In this document: positions 34,777 through 36,046 of the stretch, one piece after another
Numbering within the stretch: position 1 is the first letter of the stretch
How the letters are laid out: each line of letters starts with the position of its first letter
DNA from: an uncultured bacterium
Lineage (GTDB): Bacteria > Actinomycetota > Actinomycetes > S36-B12 > CAIYMF01
NCBI GenBank assembly: GCA_903826575.1
Contig: CAIKEU010000104.1
Location: forward strand, 1 to 64,000
Length of the DNA stretch: 64,000 nucleotides
Direction of reading: 5' to 3'
Translations under genes and position numbers: made by a program
The notes under the pieces: generated by a model
What the model saw: only the letters and a program-made list of their open reading frames with translations
Told to the model about the DNA's origin: nothing
Database searches by the model: none

Positions 34777-35277
34777 ATGACAGGTTTACTTGTGTTGCTT
34801 GCGGTCCTCTTGGGGGCGAGCGCGTTCGGGGTGTATCGACGGCGAGTGGATGGGCAGTTGCGGCAGGTATCCCGTGAACGGCCCGACGAGCCAACTGAGA
34901 TCCCTGCCTTGGTTGAAGGCTCCGTGGCCGTAGTCGGGGCTCCGGATGGGCCACAGGTGCCACATCATCGTGAGCACCTGACGTCTGCCGATATTGGTGC
35001 AGAATTGGGTTCGTCTGCCACGGTCGTCCAATTTAGTTCTGCGTTCTGTGCCCCATGTCGAACCACTCGCGTTGTGCTTGATGAAGTGAGCGGAATGATT
35101 CCCGGCGTTGCCCACGTTGAAATAGATGCCGAAGCTCACCTCGACCTTGTTCGCCGTCTTGATATTCGACGCACGCCGACCGTCTTGATTCTCGACGCAG
35201 CTGGTGACGTTCGCGTGCGTGCGGCCGGGGCGCCGCGCAAGGCCGACGTCATTGCGGCCCTTGGTACGTTGATGTGA
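34777..35277 (+). CDS. membrane-anchored thioredoxin-like protein
   Basis: A 166-residue protein with one N-terminal membrane segment (residues 3-20) and a thioredoxin domain with active site FCAPCRTT (Cys91, Cys94) and the cis-proline region RRTPTVLIL. It is likely tail-in and faces whichever side its short basic RRR stop-transfer dictates (cytoplasm by the positive-inside rule). In M. tuberculosis a thioredoxin (ThiX, Rv0816c) also sits beside the cysA2-sseC2 pair, so a role in sulfur transfer is likely. The ATG at 34777 was chosen; the frame upstream overlaps the hydrolase. Confidence 0.85.
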   Translation: MTGLLVLLAVLLGASAFGVYRRRVDGQLRQVSRERPDEPTEIPALVEGSVAVVGAPDGPQVPHHREHLTSADIGAELGSSATVVQFSSAFCAPCRTTRVVLDEVSGMIPGVAHVEIDAEAHLDLVRRLDIRRTPTVLILDAAGDVRVRAAGAPRKADVIAALGTLM

Positions 35278-35380: not shown

Positions 35381-35401
35381 CTGTAATCCCAATGATTACA
35401 G
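35381..35401. promoter_or_regulatory. candidate operator for the sulfur operon
   Basis: CTGTAATC-CCAAT-GATTACAG is a perfect 8+8 inverted repeat ending 2 bases before the TATTCT -10 element of the polycysteine leader. A protein bound here would cover the -35 to -10 spacer. The regulator is not in evidence. Confidence 0.5.
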
Positions 35402-35402
35402 T

Positions 35403-35408
35403 TATTCT
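35403..35408 (+). promoter_or_regulatory. leaderless -10 element of the polycysteine leader
   Basis: TATTCT ends 6 bases before the ATG at 35415, so transcription should start at or next to the A of the start codon. Confidence 0.55.
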
Positions 35409-35414
35409 CGTTTC

Positions 35415-35492
35415 ATGCAGTCAGTGGATCTCATCAAGCGTCGGGCAGTTGATTTCTGCCGCGTTTCGTCCTGCTGCTGTCGACTCTCCTGA
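35415..35492 (+). CDS. 25-residue polycysteine leader peptide (cysteine attenuator sORF)
   Basis: A 26-codon ORF, too short for usual gene finders, encoding MQSVDLIKRRAVDFCRVSSC then CCRLS, with Cys at 15, 20, 21 and 22. The basic VKRR-type core followed by consecutive cysteines is the pattern of leaderless polycysteine leaders reported as cysteine-responsive attenuators upstream of sulfur genes in mycobacteria. The promoter layout is leaderless. Its last codons contain TCTCCT (35485-35490), complementary to AGGAGA (35557-35562), the ribosome site of the next gene. A ribosome slowed at the Cys codons (35472-35480) would mask this anti-SD and free downstream translation. Confidence 0.8.
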   Translation: MQSVDLIKRRAVDFCRVSSCCCRLS

Positions 35493-35493
35493 C

Positions 35494-35562
35494 TAGACCC
35501 GTGCGCTTAGGTGCGTAGTGAGGTCTGGACTCCGCACCCGTTCAGTGCACAGACCTAGGAGA
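35494..35562 (+). promoter_or_regulatory. attenuator leader RNA with alternative pairings
   Basis: After the leader stop, TAGACC (35494-35499) can pair with GGTCTG (35522-35527), while AGGTCTG (35521-35527) can instead pair with CAGACCT (35550-35556), which abuts the AGGAG ribosome site. GGTGCG (35510-35515) with CGCACC (35533-35538) is a further exclusive hairpin. Such competing stems fit translational attenuation. No T-run follows, so transcription termination is less likely. Confidence 0.55.
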
Positions 35563-35566
35563 CGTC

Positions 35567-36046
35567 ATGACAACCCTTGATTCACGATCGCAGGCAGTTC
35601 TGTCGATTCAACTCATCGATGCGCGTGGTCCGCGCTTCGGCGCCATTCTCACGACGCTGATGTTGGCCGCAACATTGCTCACGATTCCTTCGACGATCTC
35701 GATCATTTTGTTGAGCATCCAGACGCTGGTGTTTGGACTCGGGTCACTTGTCGGTCTGGCGGCTCAGCCCTATGGAGTCATTTACCGCCGCTTTGTGCAA
35801 CCGAAACTTGGCAAACCAACCGATCTCGAAGATCCTCGCCCGCCGCGTTTTGCCCAGTCTGTCGGGTTGATGTTCGCCGTGCTCGGACTTGTTGCTCTGC
35901 TCACCGGGGCAACGACAGTCGCTTTCGTCGCGGTTGGTGCGGCACTCGCCGCCGCCTTCCTGAACGCAGCGTTCAATTTTTGCTTGGGTTGTGAGATGTA
36001 CCTGATTGGCCGCCGCATCTTGGGGCGTTCAAGCGTATCCGTGTAA
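35567..36046 (+). CDS. DUF4395 membrane protein
   Basis: A 159-residue protein of the DUF4395 family with about four membrane helices (two hairpins at about 25-65 and 96-135). The C-terminal FCLGCEMYL motif places two cysteines (CxxC) at the end of the last helix. The family is tied to sulfur metabolism by context: here it is the first gene after a polycysteine attenuator and precedes a sulfurtransferase. AGGAG lies 5 bases before the ATG. It may carry or channel a sulfur compound, or be a redox partner; not established. Confidence 0.87.
   Translation: MTTLDSRSQAVLSIQLIDARGPRFGAILTTLMLAATLLTIPSTISIILLSIQTLVFGLGSLVGLAAQPYGVIYRRFVQPKLGKPTDLEDPRPPRFAQSVGLMFAVLGLVALLTGATTVAFVAVGAALAAAFLNAAFNFCLGCEMYLIGRRILGRSSVSV

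Follow-up and report, generated by a model that had tools for sequence, protein, structure and literature searches.

The region upstream of three sulfur genes in the window (the whole 64,000-nucleotide stretch of DNA analyzed here, from an uncultured actinobacterium) probably acts as a cysteine-responsive translational attenuator, a reading to which we assign a probability of roughly 0.8. Computational analysis of the locus and its relatives revealed a leader open reading frame (ORF), a conserved promoter spacing, a co-varying helix that involves the downstream ribosome site, the point in the leader at which this helix opens, and conservation of both the leader peptide and a UGU codon. The leader ORF is short, carries in-frame Cys codons close to its end, stands ahead of a cysteine/sulfur operon, and is flanked by a thioredoxin-like gene ending at 35277 on one side and by three same-strand genes on the other (Table 1). 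Pfam matches agreed with the preliminary description of the DNA in assigning these genes to a DUF4395 protein, a sulfurtransferase, and a DUF1416 protein, the last sharing one base with the stop codon of the sulfurtransferase gene. This gene order resembles that of the mycobacterial thiX-cysA2-sseC2 locus. The nearest named relatives are metagenome-assembled actinobacterial genomes, several of them labelled Nanopelagicales and mostly freshwater, going by sample names; the DUF4395 protein of the closest relative is 89% identical to that of the window. An Rfam search of the leader region gave no match.

Table 1. Features of the leader region and of the genes downstream, in window coordinates
Feature	Start	End	Strand	Basis
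-10-like box TATTCT	35403	35408	+	Spacing conserved in relatives
Leader ORF, 25 codons, MQSVDLIKRRAVDFCRVSSCCCRLS, stop TGA	35415	35492	+	ORF and homologues
Conserved peptide core RRAVDFCR, Arg index 1 to Arg index 8 (K = 0)	35439	35462	+	
Index-14 Cys codon UGU (codon 22), proposed stall codon	35478	35480	+	UGU conservation; SD opening in folding
Anti-SD arm (5' arm of outer helix P1), with TCTCCT	35482	35491	+	Fold; swap test
Post-stop hairpin P2 (base 35493-35499 with 35522-35528)	35493	35528	+	Compensatory changes
Small hairpin P3, GCAC/GTGC	35534	35548	+	Fold; alignment
3' arm of P1, with Shine-Dalgarno (SD) sequence AGGAGA of DUF4395	35556	35566	+	Fold; swap test
DUF4395 protein, proposed first regulated gene	35567	36046	+	Pfam PF14340, E 1.9e-40
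Two-domain rhodanese, sulfurtransferase (cysA2/sseA type)	36094	36957	+	Pfam PF00581, E 4.7e-32
DUF1416 protein (sseC type)	36957	37250	+	Pfam PF07210, E 1e-40

The coordinates of the 25-codon leader and its Cys-Cys-Cys run at codons 20 to 22 were as first described; its Cys codons are 15 (TGC), 20 (TGC), 21 (TGC), and 22 (TGT). The -10-like box was likewise found at the claimed distance, exactly 6 nt ahead of the ATG. In all 38 of 38 divergent DUF4395 leaders, a TANNNT box preceded an in-frame ATG or GTG by 6 to 7 nt, compared with 4.7 expected, a spacing that fits a leaderless transcript and is conserved across lineages. In the window, a leaderless transcript is predicted to start at or near 35415. 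Directly upstream of the -10 box, at 35381 to 35401, lies a perfect inverted repeat, CTGTAATC-CCAAT-GATTACAG, which could be the operator of some regulator. The repeat is almost intact in the sister locus L002 and was not seen in other members of the genus; no further copies were found in the genome at up to two mismatches.

The leader peptide matched two NCBIfam models, NF042933 (the Ms5788A family; E 2.5e-10, 39.8 bits, below the curated cut-off of 45) and NF042934 (cis_reg_atten, 'putative leader peptide'; 25.6 to 26.1 bits, below the cut-off of 27). On sequence grounds it is thus homologous to the Ms5788A family, yet by the curated cut-offs it is not filed as a member. When 97 loci around DUF4395 were searched with a motif, most had such a peptide immediately ahead of the gene. 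Searching the window's own genome for other leaders of this kind gave one clear match only, the weaker ones being without a leader-like ORF.

TCTCCT in the last codons of the leader is, as had been noted, an exact complement of the AGGAGA ribosome site of DUF4395 (35485-35490 versus 35557-35562). In the lowest-energy fold, a 10-pair helix between 35482-35491 and 35556-35562 plus 35564-35566 buries AGGAGA around P2 and P3. The whole 176-nt RNA was not in excess of shuffled sequences in stability (z -0.70, not significant); fold stability therefore proves nothing alone, was dropped as evidence for a switch, and co-variation was tested instead. Duplexes between leader tails and ribosome sites were computed with their own and with swapped partners for 15 leaders from the window's family and its neighbours, a set built on 11 genus relatives. 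The own-pair sum was -241.5, compared with a swapped mean of -201.5 (sd 8.8), and none of 20,000 permutations was as good; these permutation P values are approximate, as the sequences are related. With fewer, more distant representatives, P values ranged from 0.0005 to 0.006. When the same comparison was made over a 9 by 10 grid of segments (90 segment pairs), z reached about -4 only at the leader tail and ribosome site. The co-variation of TCTCCT with the ribosome site, which the preliminary description had named as a check on its proposal, is thus present within the window's family.

It is conceivable that the window's anti-SD matches a purine-rich SD by chance, given that a six-base match within the 15-nt tail has, taken alone, a P value of about 0.04. 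The swap test and the segment grid argue against this, as does a synonymous-recoding test, in which, for most members, the actual tails paired more strongly than sequences recoded synonymously for an unchanged peptide (P = 0.034 for the window), and we regard a chance match as very improbable. RNAalifold analysis of the 11 genus members recovered the anti-SD helix, P2, and P3, with both-sided changes in 4 of 13 pairs, and the pairing was lost when the partners were slid. P2, in which compensatory changes affect three of the five counted pairs, corresponds to the previously proposed pairing of 35494-35499 with 35521-35527. The alternative pairing of 35550-35556 with 35521-35527 is possible in the window and, almost completely, in sister locus L002, and was not seen in other genus members; a second mutually exclusive pairing was accordingly rejected as a general part of the element. 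Separately, the RR-A and C-R codons at 35438-35464 (columns 24 to 50 of alignment A2) fold into a strong hairpin inside the leader in this genus; the codons of this segment differ in other lineages.

The effect of a ribosome on this helix was modelled by placing it at successive codons and removing the RNA to 12 nt past the A-site codon, a footprint assumed from Escherichia coli. In the window, the probability that the SD is unpaired was 0.00 in the free RNA, stayed low through codon 20 (0.02), and rose to 0.40 at codon 21 and 0.49 at codon 22. The genus means at codons 20, 21, and 22 were 0.15, 0.32, and 0.36, and predicted opening was weak in some members, with L015 and L095 remaining at 0.20. 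Folding with the leader end masked, another of the checks first suggested, thus partly opens the SD when the A-site is at codons 21 to 22. In this prediction, in line with the co-variation, the ribosome site is hidden unless the end of the leader is covered, and the original proposal, in which the final codons of a cysteine-codon leader pair with the ribosome site of the next gene, is supported in the window's family.

From these features, the following sequence of events can be proposed. RNA polymerase would start at or near the leader ATG, and ribosomes would therefore load directly on the 5' end. When Cys-tRNA is plentiful, the leader would be completed and the ribosomes would leave; the vacated anti-SD arm would then pair with the 3' arm of P1 around P2 and P3, and the sulfur genes would be little translated. 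We infer that shortage of Cys-tRNA is the signal and that it stalls the ribosome with its A-site at codons 21 to 22, chiefly at the UGU of codon 22. The stalled ribosome would cover the anti-SD arm, which would open the DUF4395 ribosome site and allow DUF4395 to be translated. The RxxVDxxR segment of the nascent peptide would at that moment lie approximately 6 to 13 residues from the peptidyl-transferase centre and may aid the stall. Arrest peptides act in just this stretch of the tunnel, which makes a contribution of the nascent chain plausible.

In Mycobacterium, Propionibacterium, and Bifidobacterium, leaders of a similar kind with runs of Cys codons were already predicted in 2005 (Seliverstov et al., PMC1262725). 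Like the window leader, these ORFs are short and carry Cys codons close to their ends; they are located before actinobacterial cys operons. No conserved hairpin was seen among them, whereas the window's family has a co-varying SD-sequestering helix. Because no terminators were conserved, that study suggested that the mycobacterial Cys leaders act through Rho: fast translation of the leader would let Rho load on the untranslated stretch and terminate transcription, and a stalled ribosome would block Rho (PMC1262725). On such a reading of the window, the pairing between leader tail and SD would be secondary. Consistent with such transcriptional attenuation, the window contains no intrinsic terminator (hairpin plus T-run) between 35492 and 35567. 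However, the lineage-specific complementarity between tail and ribosome site is not required by a Rho mechanism, and translational control is reported for the Mycobacterium smegmatis counterparts in two papers (PMC9031893, PMC13236596). We therefore consider Rho-dependent attenuation unlikely.

In the mycobacterial literature, a leaderless Cys ORF lies before cysA2 (Shell 2015, PMC4633059), and in M. smegmatis ribosomes stall on leaderless polycysteine ORFs before cysteine/sulfur operons, according to PMC9031893 and PMC13236596. Cysteine-responsive attenuation in M. smegmatis was reportedly shown by Canestrari in 2020, the study to which the stalling result goes back. The attenuation mechanism is thus not new in kind, and the window would be a further case of a leaderless Cys-codon attenuator. 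The window leader, predicted to be leaderless, shares with M. smegmatis Ms5788A a short ORF with a Cys-codon end before a sulfurtransferase operon, the same peptide core, and, in the proposed mechanism, a sequestered downstream ribosome site. It differs from that type in coming from a freshwater actinobacterium and in having three adjacent Cys rather than the longer mycobacterial-type runs, and its family differs in having the anti-SD within the last codons. NF042934 has the RRxVDxCRVxSxxC core at the same positions, but is a named model with no stated mechanism in its table, and many of its matches have one or two Cys only. The present findings would take cysteine-codon attenuation outside the mycobacteria, an SD-hiding helix being supported by co-variation. 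They also bear on what keeps residues other than cysteine conserved in the leaders and on the near-constant use of UGU as last sensor codon.

The anti-SD in the last codons holds for the window's family, where it co-varies, and does not extend to the whole leader class. Outside the family, the mean tail complement was 3.35 nt, not above the 3.13 nt of shuffled sequences, and the Amycolatopsis group gave no own-pair signal; the tail anti-SD was ruled out as a universal feature of these leaders, and the output mechanism may therefore differ elsewhere. Two other freshwater groups had own-pair signals at other places, namely, stop-adjacent bases with the SD region and a stop-containing hairpin. 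In the nanoB group (L025, L031, L033, L037, and L047), the segment with the leader stop codon gave an own-pair signal with bases immediately preceding the SD (z -4.9), which was read as a hairpin, for example TAGTTG..CAACTA, that leaves the SD uncovered and would be a different output switch. It seems that the sensor is shared and that the RNA output has been rebuilt lineage by lineage.

To define the shared part, residues were numbered from the K of KRR as 0. A Cys was present at index 14 in all of 52 divergent DUF4395 leaders, many of which have one or two Cys in total. A phylum search with NF042934 yielded over 100 additional places, spread across 29 of 296 genomes, and 90 of these were fetched (L163 to L252); the counts are lower bounds, as no more than 29 candidates were scored in any large genome. 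The genes that follow the leaders include those for sulfite reductase, a cysteine synthase type (PALP), cysteine dioxygenase, a luciferase-like monooxygenase, FMN and flavin reductases, sulfatase, sulfonate genes, NMT1-type binding proteins, an SDF-family symporter, TauE, and rhodanese. Across 84 leader clusters (<85% identity), on which the codon statistics are based, the common denominator was RxxVDxxR plus one Cys nine residues past the Asp, and not polycysteine. The Cys run to which the preliminary description had given prominence is thus not the constant feature; a single UGU at a fixed place behind RxxVDxxR is.

R1 and D5 were constant in the 84 clusters, a constancy partly built in, because the search motif partly required them; the motif required neither the Cys position (in the DUF4395 set) nor any codon choice. 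The codons of these two residues followed the local background (R CGC, 31 versus 30.7 expected; D GAC, 49 versus 48.5 expected). In contrast, the Cys at index 14 was encoded by UGU in 78 of 82 cases and by UGC in 4, compared with 22.6 UGU expected (binomial P = 1e-38, which is approximate, since the leaders are related). Elsewhere in these leaders Cys is encoded mostly by UGC, although index 12 in poly-Cys leaders also leans to UGU (12 of 20). The genome has one tRNA-Cys among 43 tRNA matches, with anticodon GCA, and UGU is therefore read by G-U wobble. With UGU at index 14 and mostly UGC elsewhere, a single Cys codon, read by wobble and preceded by a conserved nascent peptide, seems to serve as the sensor. 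A fixed RNA pairing is an unlikely cause of the UGU, because neither the spacers nor the genes that follow are the same; in the window's genus, UGUC can pair close to the start codon, an explanation that can hardly apply phylum-wide. Of the 78 UGU codons at index 14, 51 were followed by C, 15 by T, 11 by A, and only 1 by G, a further constraint at the proposed stall codon. In L219 and L227, GGG replaces the Cys at index 14 and a Cys occurs earlier; these are possibly shifted sensors or decayed copies.

A simpler variant of the attenuator is plain stalling at a hungry codon, for which a Cys codon anywhere close to the ORF's end would be enough, RxxVDxxR and UGU being by-products of common ancestry or RNA structure. 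Cys codons alone are reportedly needed in Canestrari's model, and the local RR-A/C-R hairpin in the window's genus could conserve part of the sequence. Against this stand three observations: R1 and D5 are kept as residues while their codons match the background, Cys 14 is nearly always UGU while the other Cys codons are mostly not, and the peptide core persists before unrelated sulfur genes. We regard this variant as possible, though doubtful. The strong conservation of the peptide and its Cys residues could also point to a trans-acting micropeptide that binds a metal or thiol, operon regulation being incidental. Such a role appears highly unlikely to us, as the leaders mostly lie directly before sulfur genes, in many members the only Cys is the last residue or close to it, and the tail is complementary to the ribosome site of the gene that follows.

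The attenuator reading with a contribution of the nascent chain invites comparison with arrest peptides such as TnaC and SecM, which have conserved residues at a fixed distance upstream of the stall codon. The leaders resemble these in that RxxVDxxR, at a fixed distance upstream of the proposed stall codon, is kept at the residue level and not at the codon level. Unlike TnaC and SecM, the proposed trigger is Cys-tRNA shortage, rather than a small-molecule ligand or arrest with all tRNAs charged. A literature search found nothing on the UGU or the peptide core of these leaders, which is weak evidence, as many journals lay outside the search; the nearly invariant UGU behind a conserved peptide could be the surprise of this system. 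Tentatively, and at somewhat below even odds, we suggest that the phylum-wide sensor is a wobble-read UGU nine residues after the Asp, with RxxVDxxR priming the ribosome and each lineage having its own RNA switch. If so, one slow Cys codon would suffice once the nascent chain primes the ribosome, and if nascent-chain priming is true, an arrest-like peptide that senses charged tRNA would coordinate sulfur genes across a large phylum.

One genus of large genomes, taken to be Streptomyces-like, had up to at least 13 leader matches per genome, and its Cys 14 was UGU in 26 of 27 clusters (background, 0.25). Were the phylum-wide sensor real, up to a dozen sulfur genes would be preceded by such sensors in these genomes. 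Their Cys-leader matches, at least 4 to 13 in each genome, have mostly one or two Cys and stand before many different sulfur genes, and these leaders may constitute a sulfur regulon read by ribosomes.
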